From Anagrus nilaparvatae (lineage: Eukaryota > Arthropoda > Insecta > Hymenoptera > Mymaridae): 64,000 nt of DNA. Made by a program: the position numbers and the translations under genes. This document shows, piece after piece, positions 216 to 64,000 of the stretch. The stretch is from the NCBI GenBank assembly GCA_022575985.1, contig JAKSXM010000142.1, forward strand, positions 2,666,001-2,730,000, in the 5' to 3' direction. The number at the start of each line of letters is the position of its first letter. The first letter of the stretch is position 1. The notes under the pieces are model-generated. The model worked only from the letters and a program-made list of their open reading frames with translations, did no database searches and was not told the DNA's origin.

Positions 216-2384
216 CCTCGTAAAAAAGCTAAAGAACTCTAACTCAAAAAATGAATTATTTCACTCAGCTTATTTAATAACCTTCATATAATATACTGGA
301 ATTCCGGTTATGGCAAAAGGATTTTTTTTTCTTCATTTAAACTGCTGCGAAAAGCATAAAAACTTCAGAAAATTAAAAAAACAAATTTTCTTTTAACCTT
401 AAGGTAATGTGGCTTATGATAACCAACTAAGTAAAAAATTTTTCTAAACTTTTACATTTCAATCGATTTGCAATCGCTTAATTAAATTTTAAAAAATTCG
501 TTCGCCACAACAACAATTTTTTTTCACTTAGATTAATTAAAAATATTTATTCCATGCAAAAAAAATGAATAAATAAAATCGCGACATATAATTTAATATA
601 AAAAATTGAATAAAAAAAGTAATTTCCAATCAATAAATTTTCTTTTTCAACTCTTTTTAGACAAGCAAAATCTCTTTAGGGATATAAAAAAAAAAAGTCT
701 CAGTCAGTAAAGAATCTTTCTCATTAACGCAGATTACGTGGCATTTACTGCTCTGATAGTGATGATTAAATGTTTTCTGCAGATTTTTTTTTATATATAT
801 TTTTATAGAGCTTTATTCTTAAGAAATCAATTATATACTTATAAAAGCTTCAAGTTACTTAACTTCACTTTTTTTTACTTTATAGTATCTTATTTTTTAT
901 AGTTAATTAATTAGAGAAAAAAAATTATTTTAATTAAATATACTGTAAAAAATAATTTAAGGGTTGTGTTACCTGGGAAATATCTATAATTTTTTAGTTT
1001 TACAACAAAATACCTAATAATTTTCAAAATTAGAGTTTTTTTTACAAAAAAAAATTGAATTTCAAAGCTTGAAAAATATTGGAAAATTACAGGGAAATAT
1101 TTGCAAGTAAAGCTTTGAAACTAATGATTTTAGTTGACTAAGTAGGAAAACTGTTTGTAAAAATTTTAATCAATCATTTTTTGCTTAAATCAAGAAAATC
1201 AATAAGAAACGTGTTAATTATGACCAAGAAATTTAATTAACGTGAAAGTAACTTCAATATTTATAAAACTTTGTAAATTTCAATTTCTACTTCCAATTTT
1301 TACAAGAACCTCAAAAAGTTTACAAAGAATTTCAAAGAAAATGATCAAAGAGTTTGAATAAGTTTTTCAAAAAGTTTTAGAAAGCTTGCAATCACACTAA
1401 TAAATAAATACATGTAAATTCTTAAAAATTACCATAAATTTACTAAATATTTAAAAAAAAAGAAAATCCTTTAATTATTAATAAAATTATATGTCAATAA
1501 CAATTAAAATTTAAGAATAAATTCAATAAAGTTTTTAGGTTATGTCCAATATAAGAAAAGTTTATATTAAACCTACAAAAGCACGTATATTCCATTAATT
1601 ACATCGCAAGTTCTTCTAATGTTATAAGAGAGAAAATGCAACTAAGTTTTACTGAACGTACAGTATGTCTGAGCATAAGAGAATTGAAAATTTTAGTGGC
1701 TATATCTTCTTGTAATTACAAGTTTATTTTCATTTAATTTTATAATATCTATTTATAATTTTATTAAATTTATACATTTTTTTTAATTACTAGACTGTGT
1801 TTTTTTAATTATCATTTCCAAGGACTAAAATTGGATTTTATGTCTTACAAATACCTATTTTTTCCTTCATTTTTATTAAATAAAAAACGTTAATTAAGTA
1901 TAAACAAGAAGATATTGAAATATTTTCTTTGATGTGTAAGTGTAATGAATATTTAAATTAACCTGCCAATACCTGCTCCTTGTTTTCGTTGAAATCCTTG
2001 GTTTGCGGTTTCATCAAACTCACTGAAATACTTTACAAAGACACAAACAGTAAAGTTAAATAAAGTTTAAATAAGATAAATTGCTATTCAAAATTTTATT
2101 AAAAAATACTTTTTGTATTGTTTGACACTTGTTATTTTATTATTTTTTTTCAGAGTTAATTTTGGTTCTCTAGAAAAAAATAACATACATGCGTCGAGGG
2201 CTCTCCTTGAGAACCTCATGCTTTAAAGATTGTTGACGTCACGTACGAAACCTTATATGTTTTTTATGAGAAATATACAAGAAAAAGATCTGTATGTATC
2301 ATAATATATTCATTGGATCTCAAACTGGCCTTGTGGTTGTAAAGAAGAAAAAATCTATGTTTTTCAAAGACAGAATATTCCTTA
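216..2384. other. AT-rich DNA without genes
   Basis: Mostly A/T runs and short degenerate words. No open frame of note, RNA gene or clear repeat boundary seen. A slightly more GC-rich patch near 2190-2250 has no recognisable structure. Confidence 0.6.
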
Positions 2385-2616
2385 CACTGAAAAACAAATA
2401 CACTTGTGGCAATCGAAATTCCGTTTGTAAAAAGCAGAGCTTCTTTTTATGCTTAAACGATTGCAAATCACCTGAAATCTAAAAAAAATTAAAACAAAAT
2501 TATTTTTCTTTTTTTTTTTTAATTTTTTTCACTCAACATTTGGCTGCGTTCCATTTTTCTTTACGTTTCAAGTCATTCGCAATTATTTGAGCATAAAAAA
2601 TATTTTTTTTTCAGTG
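2385..2616. mobile_element. MITE, CACTGAAAAA family, TA target site
   Basis: The element begins CACTGAAAAACAAA and ends TTTTTTTTCAGTG, with TA immediately outside each end (2383-2384 and 2617-2618). The interior is A/T-rich with 'cgattgcaaat' and 'cattcgcaattat' words in opposite orientation. About 232 bp and non-coding. TA duplication with a short TIR suggests mobilisation by a Tc1/mariner-like transposase; that assignment is inference. Related copies are at 10.4, 12.4 and 41.3 kb. Confidence 0.6.
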
Positions 2617-2754
2617 TAAAACTATTCAATTTTTGGAAAGCTAGACAAAACTAAAACAGAGTATGATCAACGCCACTAGGCTATAAATTATTCCAAAACA
2701 CAGGATACTTGTTTGACAAGGGAAGACCATTACATTTGGGAAACCAAATTATAG

Positions 2755-2778
2755 TTTTTTTTTTTTTTTTTTTTTTTT
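2755..2778. repeat. Poly(T) tract
   Basis: Uninterrupted run of about 24 T. It could be an old poly(A) tail of a minus-strand retroelement, but no element body is recognisable next to it. Confidence 0.8.
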
Positions 2779-2899
2779 AATTTTTGATACAACGATGCAA
2801 CCTCACAAATTAAAAACTTCTGATTGATCTCAATTTTTTATCATTAATTATCTCATTGCCGTATTCAATTAACAAATAGGTATTTTAGACAAAAATGAC

Positions 2900-3230
2900 C
2901 AATTTTTAAATTAAAGCCAAAATTGCAATTTTTGGTGAAAACAGGTTTTCTAGGTCTCAAGAATTTTCTACAAGCTTCAAGATTCCAAAATCTTTTTAAT
3001 CGCCTGTTTTCTTTTTAAATAATTTCTAAGATATCACTTTTTAAAGATAATGTTAAAAATTTACTTTTTTTAAAAACTATGAATTTTGGACTCTGATTTT
3101 GAATTTTCATATCTGATAGAAAAATAATTAAAAAGAGACGAATAAAAAGATTTTGGAGACTTGAAGCCTGTAGAAAATTTTCGAGACCTATAAAGCCGAT
3201 TTATAAGTAAAAAATTAAAATTCTGACATC
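2900..3230. repeat. Imperfect palindromic element
   Basis: Two arms in opposite orientation: the left arm reads 'ggtctcaagaattttctaca' then 'gcttcaagattccaaaatc' at about 2955-3000, and the right arm carries the reverse complement with 'gattttggagacttgaagc' and 'ttttcgagacc' at about 3150-3190. The two arms are separated by about 150 bp. A related but more decayed sequence is at 55.48-55.83 kb, so this is a dispersed hairpin family. No coding capacity; termini and target site are not clear. Confidence 0.55.
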
Positions 3231-5929
3231 AAATAAAAAATTAGTTATATTACCATTTGATTAATTAATTTTAACAATGAGAGAATGTGATAAAAAAGCA
3301 CTTACACACAAAAAAATGATACCAACCAAAAGTGTTTTGTTTAATTTGCCAGTTTGCAGCGTTATATTGAAAAACTCCAAAAAATCCTATTTAATAACAT
3401 TGAGTCCTGTGTTTCTAGGCCTAAATAGCCCATTGGAATATACGAATGATATCGAGGATATTTTTCCAACATATTAAAGAAAACCACAGATTGTAATTTA
3501 GTTTCCCAAAGATAACCTTGTAATTTTAGTAAGAATCTTCCATACACACTTCACATTTAAATACAATAATATTATTTTACATATAAAACAATAGTTATAA
3601 ATGTTTAGACACACATCAAGTAAGTGCTTTGACTACTAAACAGACAAGGCTTAGAAAATTTTCTATTAATTATATTTTATATAAGACATTTCAAGGATTT
3701 TCTACGTAGGTTAAATTATAATGCTGTAATAATATTTTCCATTACACTTAATAAGTATACAGCTAAATTAATTAAAATTTTAAATACATGAATATTTTTA
3801 ATTATATTAGACTTTACTATGGGAATTCATGTTTAAAAAGTATTAATAAAAAAATACGTTACTTATATACTTTTACTGATAATTAGAAAAAAAAATAATA
3901 AAGTAAGTAAAATCAATAATGTTTAGCTCATAAAATAGAAAAAAATATCTTGTTTCAAAAAGATTATACCTTTTTTAATTAAGTAAAGTATTTTAAACAA
4001 TTAAAATAAAGTTTGAAAAACTAAGTTCGATTTTATTGAAAATAATTTATATTTGGAAATTCGTATACAATAAAATTGTGTTATTTAATTAAGTTATCTA
4101 TTAGAAATGTTTCTCTGGGTTTATAGCAGTTGGAGAAACCTGACATTTTCGATAACAGACATTTGATGTCAAAATGTACGAAACATCATATATAATTCTA
4201 TTAATGAAATGTAATATTTTAAGTATTGGATGAGTTATAATGATTTAGGTTTTTATTGTTGAAATCTGATTGTACTGAAAATGGTTTAGTTGCCCAAAAT
4301 AGAAATTTTAAGGTTATTTTTTGTGGATTTTTTTTTATCTGTAATTTAATTTTTTAATTGTTTTTAAATTTAATTCTTCTAGTAAATGGTAACTGTTTTT
4401 ACCCATTTTTGGTTTCTTAGATATTTTCTTTTGTGGGCAACCAATTTAAATAGAAGCAGATATCATGTTCGTATTCAGGGACCCTAAAAACATAACAGAT
4501 AAAAATGTTAAAAAACCCAAAAACATAACCTGAGATTTGATTTTTTTTTATTTTCTCTGTTTGTACTTAAGAAATATCTAAAATATGTCCGAAAAGGGAA
4601 CTTTAGTAAAATTTTCCAAAGAATCCGAAAATTCAGTCAGAATTTCTATTCGATAAAAATGAAATTTGTCCCTAGAAATTAAGGCCAAAATTTGCCTAAA
4701 AACCATCAAATCTCAAAAATTGTATTCCTTTTTTGTTACTTATTATTACTAGAGGTTCTATGGAAAATAAAAATTGGACAATAATTAATAGTGTTTACAA
4801 AATTAACACCTTTACTTTGGTTGATTATTAAAATCATTCAAGCTTATGAACCTTAAAGAATACCACAAAAATTTAACTATAACATGAACTAAACTTGGTA
4901 ATAAAAATTTAACCTCGTTAAATTAGTTCCTCTTTTGGATAAGAATACCTACTCGACCAAACTGATGAATTCAAAATTTTATTTCATTTATTTACCATAA
5001 ACTATTTTCTTTTATATGAAAAATCAACTTATGATCCATAAGTCACGACCTTTCGTTGAATTCATGATAATATGAAAAAAAAGAAGAAATATTTCATTAA
5101 AAATTAAACAAGAATTTTTCAATTTTTCATTTTTTCTATTATGCTTCAAGCCATTTCAATATATTATATATATATTGATACAATAAAGAAATAAAATGAA
5201 AAATTATATAAAAAAAACTTTTTTTTATTGAATATTTCATTTGTATAAATAAAATAGTAAAAATTGTTAATTAACGTACAAAAGAAAAAATTTTTTTATT
5301 TCGTTCAATTTTCTCTCTATTTTTTTTTTTTTTTTATCAATTTAAAAATAAAAATTTTATATTATATTAATATTCTTTGATGTTTTATAAATTAAAATTA
5401 TTCTTAATATTACTTTTTTTTTCGTTATCTGAAATAAAATACGAAATATTTCAAATTTTCAAATAATTTCATTTTAACCCTTTGTATTATTTTTCTCATA
5501 TAATTTAATGAATGATTTCATTTTGAAGTGTACTTCAATTATTTTTTTTTTTTGTTAATTAAATTTTAATTCAATTTTAATTTCATTCTATTTTAGTGAA
5601 ATTTGAATATTAAAATATTTTTCTAAATGTGCTTTCTGGTGGTTGAAAAGAAAAAAATTGTTCTTCAAATAACGCTATAAATTTTGATGCAATGCTGGTA
5701 AAACATATTTGATAAATTATGAAATTTACAGAAAACTATTAAATCAAAGATACATTTGTAAAAAAATTCATAAGAAATTTTATACCCCCATTCTCTGTAC
5801 CCAAATTGTAACGTTAAGTTTAAAGTTGGGATTCAAATATTATTTAAAAAAAATGGTTTTTGTACCGTTAAATTGACAAATACACTCTAAAATTGTGTCC
5901 TAAAATTCACTGAAACAAACCTCCGAATT
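3231..5929. other. AT-rich DNA without genes
   Basis: Extremely A/T-rich; open frames at 3277-3477 and 3362-3547 are short, overlap on opposite strands and encode low-complexity peptides. A fragment at about 4460-4500 ('gttcgtattcaggga') resembles the GGTCGCTGAT module. Otherwise nothing seen. Confidence 0.55.
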
Positions 5930-45937: not shown

Positions 45938-46730
45938 ATTAAATAATTAATTTTATTTATTTAAATAATTTATTTATTTGTTTTAACTAATTTTATTTGT
46001 CAAAAATAGGAGCAAACGTAGATTTCTCGATATACTTATAGAATTATAAGATTTTTATTTTGCAAAAACATTTTTCTACAACCCACGTCATAAACTAATT
46101 TGTAAATTAATTTAAAAAAAAAATTAAAAAATAGGTTCTTTCTTTTTCAAACAGGTTTTAAGATTCTTATTTTATTTAGGGTACTTTTTTGATCCAATTA
46201 ATAAGTATTTATTTATTTATTTATTTAATGGAAGTTAGTGCAGGCATTACCGATGCACGATTACAATATTATACAATTTTAAATAAAAATGTGAAGCAGT
46301 AAAATTTGAAAATTTATAATAATAATAAATGTTTAAGTATTATCAAATTAAATATTATAACTTAATACATCTGAGAGTTAAATTATTAGATTTTTTTAAC
46401 CATTATGTTTTGAAAATCAAATCCTTGGGATCAAAAATTTGTGCACACATGAAGCAAATTTTATAATCTAATTTTTTTAGGCCTGTAAAATATTAATTAT
46501 TTATCGTTGTTTTAGTCTCTAATTGACCTGTATCTACTTAATAAAGTTCTGGCTTATTTAAACAACAGTAATATTTATAAATATAATTCTTTTAATTTTT
46601 TATCAATGATAAAGGATTCCGAGGTACTCGGTGTTTCTGCTGAAAAAATCTCCGAAAAAATTAACTAAATAATCAAGGGTCTATCATCAAAAAAAGACAC
46701 TTTAGAAATAGTATTTAATAAAAAAAATCA

Positions 46731-49140
46731 CACGTCTGGCCTTACACTAGCGTAGCCTAAGGAAATAGGCTATAATAAGAAACGACACGTCAAGCTTTAT
46801 ACTAGTGTAACCTAAGCAAGTTGGCTATAATAATTAGCGACTCGTCAAGCCTTACACTAGCGTAACCTAAGGAAGTAGGCTATAATAAAATAACGACACG
46901 TCAAGCCTTACAGTAGCGTAACCTAAGGAAGTAGGCTATAATAAAATAACGACACGTCAAGCCTTACAGTAGCGTAACCTAAGAAAGTAGGCTATAATAA
47001 AAAACAACACGTCAAGCCTTACAGTAACGTAACCTAAGGAAGTAGGCTATAATAAAATAACGACACGTCAAGCCTTACAGTAGCGTAACCTAAGGAAGTA
47101 GGCTATAATAAAATAATGACACGTCAAGCCTTACAGTAGCGTAACCTAAGGAAGTAGGTTGTAATAAAATAACGACACGTCAAGCCTTACAGTAGCGTAA
47201 CCTAAGGAAGTAAGCTATAATAAAATAATGACACGTCAAGCCTTACAGTAGCGTAACCTAAGGAAGTAGGTTATAATAAAATAACGACACGTCAAGCCTT
47301 ACAGTAGCGTAACCTAAGGAAGTAGGCTATAATAAAAAACGACACGTCAAGCCTTACAGTAGCGTGACCTAAGGAAGTAGGCTATAATAATATAACGACA
47401 CGTCAAGCCTTACAGTAGCGTAACCTAAGGAAGTAGGCTATAATAAAATAATGACACGTCAAGCCTTACAGTAGCGTAACCTAAGGAAGTAGGTTATAAT
47501 AAAATAACGACACGTCAAGCCTTACAGTAGCGTAACTTAAGGAAGTAGGCTATAATAAGAAACGACACGTCAAGCCTTACAGTAGCGTAACCTAAGGAAG
47601 TAGGCTATAATAATATAACGACACGTCAAGCCTTAAAGTAGCGTAACCTAAGGAAGTAGGTTATAATAAAATAACGACACGTCAAGCCTTACAGTAGCGT
47701 AACCTAAGGAAGTAAGCTATAATAAAATAATGACACGTCAAGCCTTACAGTAGCGTAACCTAAGGAAGTAGGTTATAATAAAATAACGACACGTCAAGCC
47801 TTACAGTAGCGTAACCTAAGGAAGTAGGCTATAATAAAAAACGACACGTCAAGCCTTACAGTAGCGTGACCTAAGGAAGTAGGCTATAATAATATAACGA
47901 CACGTCAAGCCTTACAGTAGCGTAACCTAAGGAAGTAAGCTATAATAAAATAATGACACGTCAAGCCTTACAGTAGCGTAACCTAAGGAAGTAGGTTATA
48001 ATAAAATAACGACACGTCAAGCCTTACAGTAGCGTAACCTAAGGAAGTAGGCTATAATAAAAAACGACACGTCAAGCCTTACAGTAGCGTGACCTAAGGA
48101 AGTAGGCTATAATAATATAACGACACGTCAAGCCTTACAGTAGCGTAACCTAAGGAAGTAGGCTATAATAAAATAATGACACGTCAAGCCTTACAGTAGC
48201 GTAACCTAAGGAAGTAGGTTATAATAAAATAACGACACGTCAAGCCTTACAGTAGCGTAACTTAAGGAAGTAGGCTATAATAAGAAACGACACGTCAAGC
48301 CTTACAGTAGCGTAACCTAAGGAAGTAGGCTATAATAATATAACGACACGTCAAGCCTTAAAGTAGCGTAACCTAAGGAAGTAGGTTATAATAAAATAAC
48401 GACACGTCAAGCCTTACAGTAGCGTAACCTAAGGAAGTAAGCTATAATAAAATAATGACACGTCAAGCCTTACAGTAGCGTAACCTAAGGAAGTAGGTTA
48501 TAATAAAATAACGACACGTCAAGCCTTACAGTAGCGTAACCTAAGGAAGTAGGCTATAATAAAAAACGACACGTCAAGCCTTACAGTAGCGTGACCTAAG
48601 GAAGTAGGCTATAATAATATAACGACACGTCAAGCCTTACAGTAGCGTAACCTAAGGAAGTAGGCTATAATAAAATAATGACACGTCAAGCCTTACAGTA
48701 GCGTAACCTAAGGAAGTAGGTTATAATAAAATAACGACACGTCAAGCCTTACAGTAGCGTAACTTAAGGAAGTAGGCTATAATAAGAAACGACACGTCAA
48801 GCCTTACAGTAGCGTAACCTAAGGAAGTAGGCTATAATAATATAACGACACGTCAAGCCTTAAAGTAGCGTAACCTAAGGAAGTATAGTCTATATTAAAA
48901 AAACAACACGTCAAGCCTTACACTAGCGTAACCTAAGGAAGTAGGCTATAATAAAAAACGACAAGTCAAGCCTTACAGTAGCGTGACCTAAGGAAGTAGG
49001 CTATAATAATATAACGACACGTCAAGCCTTACAGTAACATAACCTAAGGAAGTAGGCTATAATAAGAAACGACACGTCAAGCCTTACAGTAGCGTAACCT
49101 AAGGAAGTAGGCTATAATAAAAAACACACGTCAAGCCTTA
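46731..49140 (+). repeat. Left array of ~56-bp units (about 43 copies)
   Basis: The unit reads 'cgacacgtcaagccttacag', 'tagcgtaacctaaggaagta', 'ggctataataaaataa', with 54-57-bp length variants in the A/T tail. The first three units are the most divergent ('ctggccttacactagcgtag', 'gtaacctaagcaagttggct'). Interior units differ by only a few substitutions and form higher-order blocks. Confidence 0.9.
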
Positions 49141-50820
49141 CACCAACACAACGTAAATTTTGGAGACAAAACTTTTCAAATAATTAAGTATCAGGTCAGT
49201 TTTTTTCTCGGTTTTTTTCGAGTTTTTTTTATGACAAAAACGTTAATAATTAATAAAAAATTTTTCAAATCATTAATTATCAGATCCAATAAATCTATTA
49301 AAACCGAGTTTTCTAAATTTATTACTTTCATTGAAAAGTATTTGGTATTACGTCCAAAAATAATAAAAATTTAGGGGTTTTTTTTTTAATTTTTGAAAGC
49401 ATTAGATTGAGACAAAAATTTCGCACACACACGCAAGAGTTACACCAACATAACCTCATGCAATGGTATAGTCAGGGTGGCCACGGAACTGAAGTTTTAA
49501 AATTCCCTGACTTTCCAGACCATTTTTCTTAAATTTTCCAGTACTTTTTTAGTGTTTCAACCAAATTTTACAAACCAAATTCCCTGAATTTCCAGAGTTT
49601 CCTACAAACAAATTTTAGTAAATTTCAGACATTTTCTTTTTCAAAATTTAATATTAAATTTAAATACCCAACTATATCTGCACTCTAGTTATTAAATTTA
49701 CTATATTTTCTGTATTATATATTTTTATTATTAAATTGATTTAAAAAGGAAGGGACAAAAGTATTTTTGAAAATAAATAAAAATGATCATTTTTTAATAT
49801 TATACGTCTAAACATCATTTTCTATCTGCTGGCTAGTGTTTAAAAAAATTTTAAAGCATGTTAAAAAATTAGAAAACTGAAAAGTAAAAATTCCCATGTT
49901 ATTTAAATGGGAAACTTTAAGTGCTCGGTGTTACGAGTAAAATCCTTGAAGATGGGGGGTTTTATGACCAAAATATCCAAATGTGGGGAGAGCAAAAAAA
50001 TCTCGAAAACAAAAAATTAAAACACGCTCTACTGAACACGAATACGACATTTGTTTTTACCTAAATTGTTCTTATTCCCTACAATAGAAGATGAATGCGT
50101 AGCAATTACCTAAAGATATTTAATGTGGGCAACTGGTGCATTTTAAGTAAAAACAAACATCATATTCGTGTTTAGTGACCGAAAAATATTTTTTATTATT
50201 AGTTACTTAACCGATAATAATTCAAATAAACCCGAAATTACAACTAGAGCTGAAAGATTGATTTATTTTTTTATTTCATCAGACTTACACTTCACTCAAA
50301 GGTTATTTTTTATCAGAGAAAATTATATTTAAGGTGGCTCCCGGTTTTAGGTCCGTAGATTTTAGGGTGTGATCAGAGGGGGGTATAACTAATTAATTAA
50401 ATTATATTAATTATTTTATGGATATGCGAATATTTAGAAGTTATTATTAATAATAATGCATTTTCTTATATAATGAGTGTGGTATAAACAAAATTTTTTA
50501 TTTACAAAACATTTTATTGAAAGGAGCCCACGACTAAAATTATGTGTTTATAATTTGATCGGCAACTATTGTATTTTTTTCTTGGAAAAGTTTCTACTTT
50601 TGTTAAATAACACGTGTGTACAATTTTATCTAAAAAGATTCGTTATTGAATGAGTACGAAGTAAAACAATATCAACTCCCATAAGAACGCGTGTTTAACC
50701 TTAAAAATTTTGAGTTGCTTATTTCTTTCTTAATTAACCAGGAACCTGGGTATTGTTTGGGATCAATGGATTTGTTTTTTAATTATCTTCATCTCCATTA
50801 AATTTTAGTGTCGGTTTTTT
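49141..50820. other. Loop of the Foldback-type element
   Basis: No open frame of note. 49141-49430 carries two diverged copies of the ~150-bp module seen at 58-62.9 kb ('aattattatcagatcc'-like and 'tattacgtccaaaaataat'). 49466-49620 has 'aattccctgactttccagac' and 'aaattccctgaatttccaga', a motif widespread in insect repeats. 50031-50177 is a separate hairpin. The rest is A/T-rich. Confidence 0.55.
50031..50177. repeat. Hairpin inside the loop
   Basis: 'actgaacacgaatacgacat' with 'ttgtttttaccta' at the left is inverted at the right as 'taagtaaaaacaaacatcat' and 'attcgtgtttagt'. Arms about 35 bp, spacer about 77 bp. The 'cgaatac' and 'agtgacc' words echo the GGTCGCTGAT module. Confidence 0.6.
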
Positions 50821-51868
50821 ATTATAGTCTTTTTCTTTAGGTTATGTTAGTGTAAGGCTTGACGTGTCATTATTTTATTATAGCCTATTTCCTTAGGTTA
50901 CGTTACTGTAAGGCTTGACGTGTCGTTTTTTATTATAGCCTACTTCCTTAGGTTACGCTACTGTAAGGCTTGACGTGTCGTTATTTTATTATAACCTACT
51001 TCCTTAGGTTACGCTACTGTAAGGCTTGACGTGTCATTATTTTATTATAGCCTACTTCCTTAGGTTACGCTACTGTAAGGCTTGACGTGTCGTTTCTTAT
51101 TATAGCCTACTTCCTTAGGTTACGCTACTGTAAGGCTTGACGGGTCGTTATTTTATTATAGCCTACTTCCTTAGGTTACGTTACTGTAAGGCTTGACGTG
51201 TTGTTTTTTATTATAGCCTACTTTCTTAGGTTACGCTACTGTAAGGCTTGACGTGTCATTATTTTATTATAGCCTACTTCCTTAGGTTACGCTACTGTAA
51301 GGCTTGACGTGTCGTTATTTTATTATAGCCTACTTCCTTAGGTTACGCTACTGTAAGGCTTGACGTGTCGTTATTTTATTATAGCCTACTTCCTTAGGTT
51401 ACGTTACTGTAAGGCTTGACGGGTCGTTATTTTATTATAACCTACTTCCTTAGGTTACGCTACTGTAAGGCTTGACGTGTCATTATTTTATTATAGCCTA
51501 CTTTCTTAGGTTACGCTACTGTAAGGCTTGACGTGTCGTTATTTTATTATAACCTACTTCCTTAGGTTACGCTACTGTAAGGCTTGACGTGTCATTATTT
51601 TATTATAGCCTACTTCCTTAGGTTACGCTACTGTAAGGCTTGACGTGTCGTTATTTTATTATAGCCTAATTCCTTAGGTTACGCTACTGTAAGGCTTGAC
51701 GTGTCGTTTCTTATTATAGCCTACTTCCTTAGGTTACGCTAGTGTAAGGCTTGACGAGTCGCTAATTATTATAGCCAACTTGCTTAGGTTACACTAGTGT
51801 AAAGCTTGACGTGTCGTTTCTTATTATAGCCTATTTCCTTAGGCTACGCTAGTGTAAGGCCTGACGTG
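50821..51868 (-). repeat. Right array of ~56-bp units (about 19 copies)
   Basis: Same unit as the left array in reverse: 'ttattatagcctacttcctt', 'aggttacgctactgtaaggc', 'ttgacgtgtcg'. The outermost units (51730-51868) match the outermost three of the left array, including the GCTAATTATTATAGCCAACTT variant; inner units do not correspond one to one. Variants 'gacgggtcg' (twice) are seen only here. Confidence 0.9.
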
Positions 51869-52646
51869 TGATTTTTTTTATTAAATACTATTTCTAAAGT
51901 GTCTTTTTTTGATGATAGACCCTTGATTATTTAGTTAATTTTTTCGGAGATTTTTTCAGCAGAAACACCGAGTACCTCGGAATCCTTTATCATTGATAAA
52001 AAATTAAAAGAATTATATTTATAAATATTACTGTTGTTTAAATAAACCAGAACTTTATTAAGTAGATATAGGTCAATTAGAGACTAAAACAACGATAAAT
52101 AATTAATATTTTACAGGCCTAAAAAAATTAGATTATAAAATTTGCTTCATGTGTGCACAAATTTTTGATCCCAAGGATTTGATTTTCAAAACATAATGGT
52201 TAAAAAAATCTAATAATTTAACTCTCAGATGTATTAAGTTATAATATTTAATTTGATTATACTTAAGCATTTATTATTATTATAAATTTTCAAATTTTAC
52301 TGCTTCACATTTTTATTTAAAATTGTATAATATTGTAATCGTGCATCGGTAATGCCTGCACTAACTTCCATTAAATAAATAAATAAATAAATACTTATTA
52401 ATTGGATCAAAAAAGTACCCTAAATAAAATAAGAATCTTAAAACCTGTTTTAAAAAGAAAGAACCTATTTTTTAATTTTTTTTTTAAATTAATTTACAAA
52501 TTAGTTTATGACGTGGGTTGTAGAATAATTGTTAATTAATTAAAAATGTTTTTGCAAAATAAAAATCTTATAATTCTATAAGTATATCGAGAAATCTACG
52601 TTTTCTCCTATTTTTGACAAATAAAATTAGTTAAAATAAATAAATA

Positions 52647-57881: not shown

Positions 57882-59438
57882 CGCTGCCAAGTGATTGGCA
57901 CTATGGTTCCTCATTAACAATAGCAAAATATTTATAATGGTCTATTTTATCTAATAAAAATTATAATTTGAGATATCAGTATTTCATAAAAAAAAGTTAA
58001 ATACCGTATTTTAAAAGAAAAAAAATGTTGCTGTGATTTAATGTTTTTTATTTAACAAATTTTTAGAAAAAAATTTCAATAAACTAGGTATTACACTTAA
58101 AAAAAAAACAATATTACAGATTTTTTAATTTTTTTGTTTTATTAATATTGAGAAAAAAATTTTGAAAAAATTCGGTATCAGGTCCAAAAAATTACTATGA
58201 ATAAGCTTTCTAAAACTAGTACTCTCATAGAAATTAATTAGGTACTACGTCCGAACAAAAAAAAAATTTGGTATTCTTTGTATTTTTTGGTGAAAAAAAT
58301 TTTGGGAAAAAAATTTTCAAAAAATTAGTTATCAGATTCGAGATATCGAGTAAAAATCGTTCAAATATAAGTACTTTCATGGAAATAAATGAGGTATTAC
58401 ATCCAAATTAAAAAAAAAAAAGTAGTTTGAGATTTTTTGATGAAAAAATTTCTGAAAAAAAAATTAGATCTTAATTCCACAATGGTTGTTAAATACCACC
58501 GATTGCAAAATTTTCAAATATTAGTACTTTCATAGAAAAAAACTAAGTATTACGTCCTAAAATAAAAAAAATTTTGGCATTTTTTGTATTTTTTGGCAAC
58601 AAAAATTTTGAGAAAAAAATTTTGAAAAAATTAGGTTTCAGGTCCAAAAAAATGCTATAAATCATATTTCTAAAACTAGTACTCTCAAAGAAATGAATTA
58701 GGTACTACGTCCAAAAAGAAAAAAAAAATTAGTGTTTTTTGTATTTTTTTGTGAAAAAAATTTTTAGAAAAAAATTTTCAAAAAATTAGTTATCAGATTC
58801 GAGATATCGAGTAAAAATCGTACTTTCAAATATAAGCACTTTCATGGAAATAAATGAGGTATTACATCCAAATTAAAAAAAAAAAAAAAGTAGTTTGAGA
58901 TTTTTTGATGAAAAAATTTTTGAAAAAAAAATTAGATCTTAATTCCATAATGGTTGTTAAATACCACCGATTGCAAAATTTTCAAATATTAGTACTTTCA
59001 TAGAAAAAAACTAAGTATTACGTCCTAAAATAAAAAAAATTTTGGCATTTTTTGTATTTTTTGGCAACAAAAATTTTGAGAAAAAAATTTTGAAAAAATT
59101 AGGTATCAGGTCCAAAAAAATGCTATAAACCATAGTTCTAAAACTAGTACTCTCAAAGAAATAAATTAGGTACTACGTCCAAAAAGAAAAAAAAAATTAG
59201 TGTTTTTTGTATTTTTTTGTGAAAAAAATTTTGAGAAAAAAATTTTCAAAAAATTAGTTATCAGATTCGAGATATCGAGTAAAAATCGTACTTTCAAATA
59301 TAAGTACTTTCATGGAAATAAATGAGGTATTACATCCAAATTAAAAAAAAAAAAAAGTAGTTTGAGATTTTTTGATGAAAAAATTTTTGAAAAAAAAATT
59401 AGGTCTTAATTCCATAATGGTTGTGAAATTTCACTGGT

Positions 59439-59498
<60 letters not shown>

Positions 59499-59611
59499 GA
59501 CTTTTTTTAAAAACCGGTTTTTTAGCTTCCTGAGGTCCCAAAATGTGCTTATACGCCAAAAAATCAAAAATCAAAATTTCATCTATCACAAAGGTTCCTC
59601 TATGAGGAACC
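57882..59611 (+). repeat. Direct duplicate of the left arm of the following hairpin element
   Basis: Starts CGCTGCCAAGTGATTGGCAC and 'tatggttcctcattaacaat', identical to the start at 59790, and ends with the same (CA)n, 'aaaaccggttttttagcttc' and 'ggttcctctatgaggaacc' block. It is about 460 bp longer than the second copy because it carries one extra three-module super-unit (the landmark 'gatatcgagtaaaaatcgt' recurs about every 460 bp). No inverted partner of its own. Confidence 0.75.
59448..59494 (+). repeat. (CA)n microsatellite
   Basis: About 23 CA units in the first left-arm copy. The matching tract is at 60894-60942, and the inverted (TG)n with (TATG)n is at 61370-61426. Read on the minus strand it gives Cys-Val repeats in a chance frame. 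Confidence 0.9.
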
Positions 59612-59789
59612 AAAAAATAAAATTTCATAGAACTATGAAAAAAAATAAAATTTCATAGAGCTATGAAAAAAAAATAAAATTTCATAGAACTATGAAAAAA
59701 AATAAAATTTCATAGCGCTATGAAAAAAAAAATAAAATTTCATAGCGCTATGAAAAAAAAAATAAAATTTCATAGAGCTATGAAAAAAA
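59612..59789 (+). repeat. 28-30-bp minisatellite with CATAGNNCTATG palindromes
   Basis: Six units of 'aaaaataaaatttcatagaa' plus 'ctatgaa'. Each contains a palindrome CATAG-NN-CTATG with centre AA, AG or CG; the two CG units are perfect 12-bp palindromes. The array joins the two left-arm copies. Confidence 0.85.
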
Positions 59790-60884
59790 CGCTGCCAAGT
59801 GATTGGCACTATGGTTCCTCATTAACAATAGCAAAATATTTATAATGGTCTATTTTATCTAATAAAAATTATAATTTGAGATATCAGAATTTCATAAAAA
59901 AAAGTTAAATACCGTATTTTAAAAGTAAAAAAATGTTCCTGTGATTTAATGTTTTTTATTTAACAAATTTTTAGAAAAAAATTTTCAATAAACTAGGTAT
60001 TACACTTAAAAAAAAAACAATATTACAGATTTTTTAATTTTTTTGTTTTATTAATATTGAGAAAAAAAATTTGAAAAAATTCGGTATCAGATCCAAAAAA
60101 TTACTATGAATACTTTCTAAAACTAGTACTCTCATAGAAATTAATTAGGTACTACGTCCGAACAAAAAAAAAATTTGGTATTCTTTGTATTTTTTTGGTG
60201 AAAAAAATTTTGGGAAAAAAATTTTCAAAAAATTAGTTATCAGATTCGAGATATCGAGTAAAAATCGTACTTTCAAATATAAGTACTTTTATGGAAATAA
60301 ATGAGGTATTACATCCAAATTAAAAAAAAAAAAAAGTAGTTTGAGATTTTTTGATGAAAAAATTTTTGAAAAAAAAATTAGATCTTAATTCCATAATGGT
60401 TGTTAAATACCACCGATTGCAAAATTTTCAAATATTAGTACTTTCATAGAAAAAAACTAAGTATTACGTCCTAAAATAAAAAAAATTTTGGCATTTTTTG
60501 TATTTTTTGGCAACAAAAATTTTGAGAAAAAAATTTTGAAAAAATTAGGTATCAGGTCCAAAAAAATGCTATAAACCATAGTTCTAAAACTAGTACTCTC
60601 AAAGAAATAAATTAGGTACTACGTCCAAAAAGAAAAAAAAAATTAGTGTTTTTTGTATTTTTCTGTGAAAAAAATTTTGAGAAAAAAATTTTCAAAAAAT
60701 TAGTTATCAGATTCGAGATATCGAGTAAAAATCGTACTTTCAAATATAGGTACTTTCGTGGAAATAAATGAGGTATTACATCCAAATTAAAAAAAAAAAA
60801 AAGTAGTTTGAGATTTTTTGATAAAAAAATTTTTGAAAAAAAAATTAGGTCTTAATTCCATAATGGTTGTGAAATTTCACCGGT

Positions 60885-61426: not shown

Positions 61427-62950
61427 CGCACTGTAACCGGTGATATTTCACAGCCAACACGACATTAAGACCTAATTTTTTTTTCAAAATTTTTTTCACC
61501 AAAAAAACTCGAGGTACTTTTTTTTTTTTTTAATTTGGATGTAATAGTTATAATATTAATGTAATAATTATAATACCTCATTTATTTCCACGAAAGTACT
61601 TATATTTGAAAGTATGGTTTTTACTCGATATCTCGAATCTCATACTTAATTTTTTGAAAATTTTTTTCCCAAAATTTTTTTCACCAAAAAATACAAAAAA
61701 TACCAATTTTTTTTTTCTTTACGGACGCAGTACTTAATTTATTTCTGTGGAAGTACTAGTTTTAAAAATATCGTTTAGAGCATTTTTTTGGACCTGATAC
61801 TTAATTTTTTCAAAATTTTTTTCTCAAAATTTTTGTCGCCAAAAAATACAAAAAACGCCAAAATTTTTTTTATTTTAGGACGTAATACTTAATTTTTTCC
61901 TTTGAAAGTACGAATATCTAAAATTATCGTTTGTAAAGGATTTCTCCATCTGATACGTAATTTTTCGAAATTTTTTTTTTTTAAACTTTTTACATAAAAA
62001 AATTTAAAAAACACTATATTTTTTTTTCTTTTTGGATGTAGTACCTCATTTTTTTCCATGAAAGTACTGATATCTAGAAGTATCGTTTTTACTCGATATC
62101 TCGAATCTTATAATTTATTTTTGAAAATTTTTTTCTCAAAATTTTTTTCACAAAAAAATACAAAAAATACCAATTTTTTTTTTCTTTACGGACGCAGTAC
62201 TTAATTTATTTCTGTGGAAGTAAGTATTAGAAATATCGTTTATAGTAATTTTTTGGACCTGATACTTAATTTTTTCAAAATTTTTGTTCTCAACATTTAA
62301 AAAAAATAAAAATAAAAAAAACTACAATATTTTTTTTCTATTTGGATATAGTACCTAATTTTTGCTTATGAAAGTGCCAATATCTGAAAATATCGTTATA
62401 ACTCGATATCTCCAATCTGACACTTAATTTTTTGAACTTTTTTTTCTCAAAACTTTTTGCATAAAAAAATAAAAAAAACAGCAATATTTTTTTGCTTTTT
62501 GAAAGTAGTACCTCATTTTTTTCTGTGGGAGTACTAGTTTTAGAAGTATACTTTTTAGTCAATATTTTGGTACTGAAACTTAATTTTTTGAAAATTTTTC
62601 TCTCAAAATTTTTTGCATAAGAAAATTAAAGAAACGGCATTATTTTTTTTCTATTTGGACGTAGTACCTAATTTTTTCCTATGAAAGTACTTATATGTAG
62701 AATTATCGTTTTTACTCTATATCTCCAATTGATACTTAATTTTTTTTTAATTTTTTTCTAAAAATTGTTTACATAAAAAAATTAAAAAAATAGCAATATC
62801 TTTTTTCTTTTGGCACGTAGTATTTAATTTTTTCCCATGAAAGTACTAATATCTAGAATTATCATTTTTATTAGATAAAATAGACCATTAAGAACATTTT
62901 GTTATTGTTAATGAGGAACCATAGTGCCAATTACTTGGCAGCGTTTTTTT

Positions 62951-63705
62951 ATTTTGTATTCCAATATCATGCGAATTGAAAATTCTTATTTAATTTTATA
63001 AAACATTCCAAAAATGGTTAAATATAAAATAATTGAGCATTAAATATATATTCCTTACAGTACCAGTGCATTCAGAGGACAATTCTTAGTGTATTTTTAT
63101 ATTTTGTTATTTTTATTTTTATATTCCAATAACTTGCGTAATGAAAATTCTTATTTAAGTTTATAAATCATTCCAAAAATGGCTAAATATAAAATAATTG
63201 AGCATTAAATATTTATTCCTTACACTACCAGTGCATTCGGAGGACAATAATTAGTTCATTTTTATATTTTAATATTTTTATTTTGTATTCCAATATAAAG
63301 CGTAATGAAAATTCTTATTTAAGCTTATAAAACATTCCAAAAATGGTTAAATATAAAATAATTGAGCATTAAATATATATTCCTTACAGTACCAGTGCAT
63401 TCAGAGGACAATGATTAGTTTATTTTTATATTTTAATATTTTTATTTTGTATTCCAATATAAAGCGTAATGAAAATTCTTATTTAAGCTTATAAATCATT
63501 CCAAAAATGGTTAAATATAAAATAATTCAACATTAAATATATTATCCTTACACTACCAATGCATTCAGAGGACATTGATTAGTTTATTTTTATATTTTGT
63601 TATTTTTATTTTTATATTCCAATATCATGCGTAAAGAAAATTCTTATTTAATTTTATAAATTATTCCAAAAATGGCTAAATATAAAATAATTGAGCTTTA
63701 AAATC
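62951..63705 (+). repeat. ~164.5-bp tandem repeat, about 4.6 copies
   Basis: The landmark ATTCCAAT is at 62958, 63123, 63287, 63451 and 63616 (spacing 165, 164, 164, 165). Each unit contains 'gaaaattcttatttaa', 'ccaaaaatggttaaatataa', 'aataattgagcattaaatat' and 'accagtgcattcagaggaca'. The last unit is truncated after 'aataattgagc'. Adjacent units are highly similar, so this is a young array. It starts directly next to the hairpin element and ends about 200 bp before the ribozyme. Confidence 0.9.
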
Positions 63706-63912
63706 TCTGAATGTAATTTTATAAAATTAATAGAATAAAAATGCCAGCTGTATTTAAATTAGAAAGAGAAAACAAAATTTCTTCCTTCTAACGGTATACA
63801 AAAGCAAGCATTTTTAGTCGTTTTAGGAACATGTGCAAGGCAAGTACTTACACAAATTTCAAAAAAAAAAATAATTTTATATTTTTAATATTTTTTGTTT
63901 TTTAAATAATTA
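63706..63912. other. A/T-rich spacer before the ribozyme
   Basis: No open frame or repeat seen. Includes 'cttccttctaacggtataca' and 'aggaacatgtgcaaggcaag', not recognised. Confidence 0.5.
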
Positions 63913-63984
63913 AACGGTGTCTAGATAAGGTGTATTAGGAGTCTACTGACGAGCCAACCTAATACACTATGGCGAAACACTGTT
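63913..63984 (+). ncRNA. Type III hammerhead self-cleaving ribozyme
   Basis: All core elements are present in order. Stem III: AACGGUGU (63913-63920) pairs with ACACUGUU (63977-63984), 8 bp including one G-U. The cleavage triplet is GUC, with the scissile bond after C63921. Stem I: UAGA (63922-63925) with UCUA (63942-63945), extendable by a U-G pair. Catalytic core CUGACGA at 63946-63952. Stem II: GCC-A (63953-63956) with U-GGC (63970-63973). GAA at 63974-63976, followed by A63977 pairing with U63920 at the base of stem III. Both ends lie in stem III, so the topology is type III. Loop I (16 nt) and loop II (13 nt) are complementary over 10 nt (63930-63939 with 63958-63967). Such ribozymes process multimeric RNAs of satellites, retrozymes and some retroelements; which carrier applies here is unknown because the window ends 16 bases later. 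Confidence 0.85.
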
Positions 63985-64000
63985 ACGTGACTATTAGTTG

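Follow-up and report, generated by a model that had tools for sequence, protein, structure and literature searches.

A putative type III hammerhead ribozyme with extensively complementary loops in the genome of Anagrus nilaparvatae

Hammerhead ribozymes of type III are mostly known from plants and their circular RNAs, whereas those of animals are mostly of type I (PMC7761336, PMC7229834). Nevertheless, animal type III hammerheads have been described: a discontinuous one resides in mammalian Clec2 genes (PMC6155905), and atypical forms with loop pseudoknots have been reported from hepatitis delta virus (HDV)-like RNAs of a toad and a termite, from two termite genomes, from Drosophila pseudoobscura and from several flies (PMC7936874). 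The source that the latter study gives for the D. pseudoobscura motif is Perreault et al. 2011, in the main text of which (PMC3088659) the word Drosophila does not occur, and the study's own structure-based searches detected no such motif in some hymenopterans, hemipterans and a cockroach. Here we describe a complete type III hammerhead motif on the plus strand of a 64,000-nt stretch from the hymenopteran Anagrus nilaparvatae (contig JAKSXM010000142.1; hereafter, the window, in which all coordinates are positions) and argue, with a probability of about 0.8, that it represents a genuine genomic hammerhead with the capacity to cleave.

The pseudoknotted insect and HDV-like hammerheads are the closest described relatives in architecture, and the motif has in common with them the type III topology, a possible pairing between loops I and II, and isolation, the copies in termite genomes being solitary and surrounded by 2 kb without recognisable open reading frames (ORFs); the published cleavage rates of the related HDV-like hammerheads from the toad and the termite are 0.05 and 0.96 per min (PMC7936874). 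In the toad and termite forms, however, stem I consists of 5 bp and is followed by an internal loop, GCCR, and an apical hairpin of about 20 nt, and a 6-bp stem II carries a YGGC loop, whereas in the Anagrus motif a stem I of 4-5 bp is closed by a plain loop of 14-16 nt, stem II has 4 bp and the loops can pair over 11 bp of unrelated sequence. The motif thus lacks the GCCR/YGGC contact, the internal loop and apical hairpin of helix I and the 6-bp stem II, and because these features are lacking, we file it as a type III hammerhead rather than as a member of that subgroup. A preliminary description of this DNA had considered a type III hammerhead in an animal noteworthy. Type III is indeed the rarer topology in animals, but it is already in print (PMC7936874, PMC6155905) and, given the pseudoknotted examples from flies and termites, not new; it is on account of the 11-bp loop complement that we call the motif a new type III variant.

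Architecture of the motif and its excess over chance

The elements that define a type III hammerhead are all present (Table 1), namely, the CUGANGA and GAA core, an NUH cleavage triplet with A-U closure (GUC at 63919-63921; closing pair of stem III, U63920-A63977) and three stems, with stem III open-ended. Stem III has 8 bp, including one G-U pair, and a computed duplex energy of -8.0 kcal/mol; stem I has 4 bp, or 5 bp if the wobble U63926-G63941 is added; stem II has 4 bp and closes a 13-nt loop. The topology is carried by the 8-bp stem III together with the 4-5 bp of stem I. The preliminary description had proposed a type III hammerhead with an invariant core, a GUC triplet and stems of 8, 4 and 4 bp; every one of these elements was found in the place it gave, and the proposal itself gains support from the core, the stems, the match to the Rfam family RF00008 (Hammerhead_3) and the chance expectation for a strict descriptor.

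Table 1. Positions of the hammerhead elements in the 64,000-nt window
Feature	Position	Strand	Basis or remark
Complete type III hammerhead motif	63913-63984	+	sequence, RF00008 match, strict descriptor, model R1
Stem III, 5' strand	63913-63920	+	pairs with 63977-63984, open end; sequence AACGGUGU
C17, predicted cleavage between 63921 and 63922	C63921	+	sequence; RF00008 alignment
Stem I, 5' strand, UAGA	63922-63925	+	sequence
Loop I segment GGUGUAUUAGG, complementary to loop II	63929-63939	+	11 contiguous pairs
Stem I, 3' strand, UCUA	63942-63945	+	sequence
Catalytic core CUGACGA	63946-63952	+	sequence; RF00008 alignment
Stem II, 5' strand, GCCA	63953-63956	+	sequence; RF00008 alignment
Loop II segment CCUAAUACACU, complementary to loop I	63958-63968	+	11 contiguous pairs
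Stem II, 3' strand, UGGC	63970-63973	+	sequence; RF00008 alignment
Core GAA	63974-63976	+	sequence; RF00008 alignment
Stem III, 3' strand	63977-63984	+	sequence ACACUGUU

The strict descriptor, which combined the core, a UH triplet and stems of at least 4, 4 and 5 bp, had the motif as its sole match on both strands of the window. In 3.54 Gb of first-order Markov sequence with the dinucleotide make-up of the window (one strand), it yielded 17 matches, which corresponds to 6e-4 motifs per 64 kb on both strands, without any demand for loop pairing; just one of the 17 possessed GUC, and the longest pairing between the loops of any of them was 8. The earlier judgement that the elements would rarely coincide in A/T-rich filler is borne out by this expectation, and a chance core in filler is disfavoured by the Markov null as well as by two covariance models, RF00008 and a model of our own.

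RF00008 matches the motif at 63914-63983 with 34.2 bits (E 3.6e-5 in a 1.5-kb scan, and 4.8e-6 when the scan comprised 201 bases); its gathering score of 48.5 bits is a curation cut-off, not a biological definition. As a yardstick, six viral-contig loci with type III candidates gave six RF00008 matches, of 51.8, 46.4, 45.3, 43.5, 34.8 and 31.6 bits. Only one of these passes the gathering score, so sub-cut-off scores are common for type III candidates in this small sample. The six loci, themselves candidates known from sequence alone, belong to the 17 type III entries among 48 distinct contexts (47 from viral contigs and one bacterial, several being near-copies of one another) that have the same core and stem II half as the motif; the motifs that had been selected by pattern are among the RF00008 matches in L006, L008 and L011 and are unlisted in L026, L040 and L058. 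By the descriptor, 43 of the 48 contexts complete a hammerhead (26 of type I in addition to the 17 of type III) and five do not.

The second model, R1, derives from 12 type III motifs found in viral contigs; standard pairs occupy 166 of the 166 counted cells of their three stems. Run against the whole window with filters off, R1 gave the motif 33.6 bits (E 6e-8, by a rough calibration) and listed nothing else better than the runner-up, at 10.1 bits and an E-value of 1.6. The model is only partly independent of the motif because its loci were chosen by the stem II sequence, which both share.

The searches also turned up several other hammerhead-bearing sequences. Four viral contigs (L059, L034, L039 and L041) hold 4-6 R1 matches each, with E-values of 0.01 or better and a spacing of about 0.4-2.6 kb, and a fifth (L058, positions 2066-5440) has two hammerhead topologies within 3.4 kb, with four type II matches, two of them above the gathering score, and two type III matches. 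In bacterial and archaeal genomes, half of the motif was seen in two stretches, L060 and L061, of which the latter completes no hammerhead by the descriptor, and the former, with a loop longer than the script allowed, was left out of that test. Seven matches to microRNA and small RNA families in the relaxed whole-window Rfam scan (E-value up to 3) all lay far under their cut-offs.

Pairing between loops I and II

What seems to be the oddest feature of the motif went unmentioned in the preliminary description: an uninterrupted run of 11 pairs, including one G-U, can be drawn between loops I and II. We make no claim that 11 bp is the longest such pairing known. The segment of loop I is flanked by UAA on its 5' side and AG on its 3' side, and that of loop II by a single A at either side. 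Shuffled loops reached at least 11 pairs in 112 of 300,000 trials, and among 63,900 overlapping positions taken in the window itself at this spacing, 113 paired over at least 11. Among 18 distinct type III candidates that the descriptor identified in 61 loci (59 viral and 2 bacterial; 520,557 bases), loop pairing was limited to 0-4 in 17 and reached 8 in one dubious case, located in L039 (AUU triplet, 35-nt loop II), which is probably a chance descriptor match; even with the stems fixed at 4 bp, and the loops accordingly at their widest, 17 of the 18 reached at most 5 pairs. In the literature, an arrangement of stems I and II in parallel through base pairing of the loops, as would be the case here, was estimated for about 40% of hammerheads by Perreault et al. 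2011, and the lengths named there are 4, 5 and 6 bp ("four or more" for most type II), compared with 11 bp here (PMC3088659); in the insect and HDV-like type III hammerheads, the loop contacts comprise 4 nt (PMC7936874).

When pseudoknots are disallowed, the minimum free energy (MFE) structure, at -23.2 kcal/mol (z -3.63 relative to shuffles), is a nested rod of stem III and the loop-loop helix (8 + 11 bp) plus two minor helices, to which the core and both stems I and II contribute bases; the unknotted hammerhead fold attains between -9.0 and -10.9 kcal/mol. Together, stem III and the 11-bp helix account for -20.8 kcal/mol and have no base in common with stems I and II, so that all of these helices could coexist in principle; the duplex energies of stems I (5 bp) and II, including initiation, are -2.1 and -4.2 kcal/mol. 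In the folding of prefixes that start at 63913, the probability of stem I rises to about 0.5 ahead of the synthesis of loop II, compared with at most 0.02 when 33 extra upstream bases are included. The nested hairpin takes over once most of loop II has been made, with probabilities of 0.84 and 0.72 at 63965 and above 0.99 from 63970 onwards. The pseudoknot would leave linkers of 3 and 2 nt next to stem I and of 1 and 1 nt next to stem II. By rough A-form geometry with textbook constants, 28.5 A would have to be bridged between the strand ends of the 11-bp helix and the linkers would reach at least 42.7 A, suggesting that this geometry would allow the helix alongside the stems.

A functional ribozyme and the competing explanations

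Two forms are conceivable for the 11-bp complement, a loop-loop pseudoknot of a full turn and a nested hairpin that acts as a trap. Under the reading that we favour, that of a genuine, cleavage-competent hammerhead, a plus-strand transcript would cut itself between C63921 and U63922; hammerhead cleavage leaves a 2',3'-cyclic phosphate and a 5'-OH. Up to 11 bp between loops I and II would form first, as a local hairpin, and the resulting helix would then hold stems I and II side by side, as loop-loop contacts do in other hammerheads. In the likely active fold, stems I and II would close on the rod to give a pseudoknot. The probability given above pertains to a genuine hammerhead capable of cleavage; we are less sure of the pseudoknot and of the origin of the motif. 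In particular, it is only tentatively that we suggest a pseudoknotted hammerhead with four helices, in which the loops zip into a complete 11-bp turn, the local hairpin forming first and stems I and II closing on it; such a structure would exceed both the non-canonical contacts and the named 4-6 bp pseudoknots of other hammerheads and may mark an undescribed animal type III lineage.

Conceivably, the motif is a hammerhead by descent in which the nested hairpin hinders stems I and II, making it slow, a decayed relic, or a ribozyme switched on only by unfolding. The large gap between the nested MFE and the unknotted hammerhead fold, the minor MFE helices that occupy the bases of the core and of stems I and II, and the entry of folded prefixes into the nested hairpin all point in this direction, and yet the rod leaves the bases of stems I and II free, the energies of these stems could pay for the knot, and the core bases are all intact, which is not what one expects of a relic. 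We therefore regard such a trap as possible but doubtful, and favour stabilisation because, besides the intact core, loop I-loop II pairing is a known hammerhead device: in a type II example, activity was lost and rescued by mutation and, in a human one, it was lost on truncation (PMC3088659). A reading as a commonplace palindromic repeat or hairpin of AT-rich DNA, with a coincidental hammerhead core, could draw on the abundance of inverted repeats here, as seen in the same-spacing counts, but a hairpin leaves the core, the GUC triplet and stems I and II unexplained, and the rarity of the descriptor motif even without loop pairing, along with the E-value of the RF00008 match, makes this explanation very improbable. 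It is somewhat more plausible, albeit still unlikely, that the motif is part of a retrozyme or another tandem element with a second hammerhead beyond position 64000, considering that type III hammerheads in plant genomes are usually found singly or in pairs spaced by 600-1000 bp (PMC7761336) and that the window stops 16 bases downstream of the motif; the absence of an upstream copy in the window by homology or R1 and of any match to the models in the 164-bp tandem array upstream (62946-63702) speak against it. Since a hammerhead remains one even when trapped or when part of a retrozyme, these explanations partly overlap the favoured one, and the probabilities that we attach to all of them do not total 1.

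Several observations weigh against a genuine, active type III hammerhead. The RF00008 score of 34.2 bits is below the gathering score of 48.5, so that the covariance-model check proposed in the preliminary description succeeded in part: the family matches the motif, but a score above threshold, taken literally, is not reached. Moreover, the motif is unlisted in whole-window Rfam scans, both at the gathering cut-off and at E-values up to 3, an absence that presumably reflects stricter filtering of longer input. In R1, some type I motifs match or beat the 33.6 bits of the Anagrus motif (L038, 36.3 bits; L017, 35.3 bits), and as type I motifs score this high, R1 supports "hammerhead" and, less so, "type III". 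Neither homology nor R1 revealed a second copy in the window; in the comparison of 63700-64000 with the window, among the matches listed, only the self-match extends past 63938. A search of IMG/VR for exact patterns (38 bases and similar) that join this core to its loop II gave no match, nor did a comparison of the final 301 bases of the window with the INPHARED phages, and relatives beyond the window were not found. Finally, stems I and II are at essentially zero probability in pseudoknot-free folding.

Genomic surroundings and relation to other hammerhead systems

The motif is apparently isolated in gene-poor DNA. The window, with 25.3% GC, contains no ORF of at least 150 aa and no tRNA by ARAGORN; among ten ORFs compared with Pfam (of the 94 stop-to-stop ORFs of at least 60 aa), none had a match near the cut-off, the one weak match being at E 0.079 and 13.6 bits against a cut-off of 27. 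The 164-bp-unit array (4.6 copies, 90% matches) ends 210 bases upstream of the putative ribozyme. Further upstream, two AT-rich arrays with units of about 155/467 bp (58144-60882 and 61574-62867) lie, as judged by eye, in mutually opposite orientation, separated by microsatellites and GGTTCCTC palindromes. A large inverted repeat at 46070-52529 looks like a foldback-type element: its arms (46070-46888 and 51711-52529) are 819 nt long and 99% complementary, with similarity continuing past a short insertion, and a 1.67-kb spacer within it is flanked by a 56-bp minisatellite, which runs in one orientation at 46730-49142 (about 43 copies) and in the other at 50808-51869 (about 19 copies). The true ends of this element and a target-site duplication were not found, and the minisatellite had no match in IMG/VR.

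With RF00008, the motif has in common the core, the topology, the triplet and an alignment over the whole model, and differs in its long loops and sub-cut-off score. Metazoan retrozymes carry type I hammerheads in short tandem repeats (PMC7229834); AT-rich repetitive DNA is the setting in both cases, but the Anagrus motif is of type III and single in the window, and the 164-bp array upstream lacks it, so it does not qualify as one of these elements. Plant long terminal repeat (LTR) retrozymes carry within their LTRs a pair of type III hammerheads spaced by some 600-1000 bp, and an upstream copy was not found in the window. The PK hammerhead with a pistol-like secondary structure (PMC12192606) also contains a pseudoknot, which there replaces helix II, whereas here helix II is present and an extra helix would join the loops. 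A non-circular permutation of the kind described in PMC10085705 was rejected, the block order here, S-C-G, being the ordinary type III order. In the available text of the open-licence papers searched, we found no report of this motif. As to its origin, we suggest that the motif most likely stems from a ribozyme-bearing mobile or circular RNA element, of which it would be a solitary copy.

If active, the motif would extend the set of type III hammerheads known from eukaryotic genomes by one whose loop-loop helix could be very long. It would also allow a direct test of the greatest length of loop I-loop II helix that is compatible with the hammerhead fold, and of whether such a helix makes for faster cleavage or for a folding trap. 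If the Anagrus genome holds further copies, these could reveal a circular or mobile RNA element that spreads such ribozymes.
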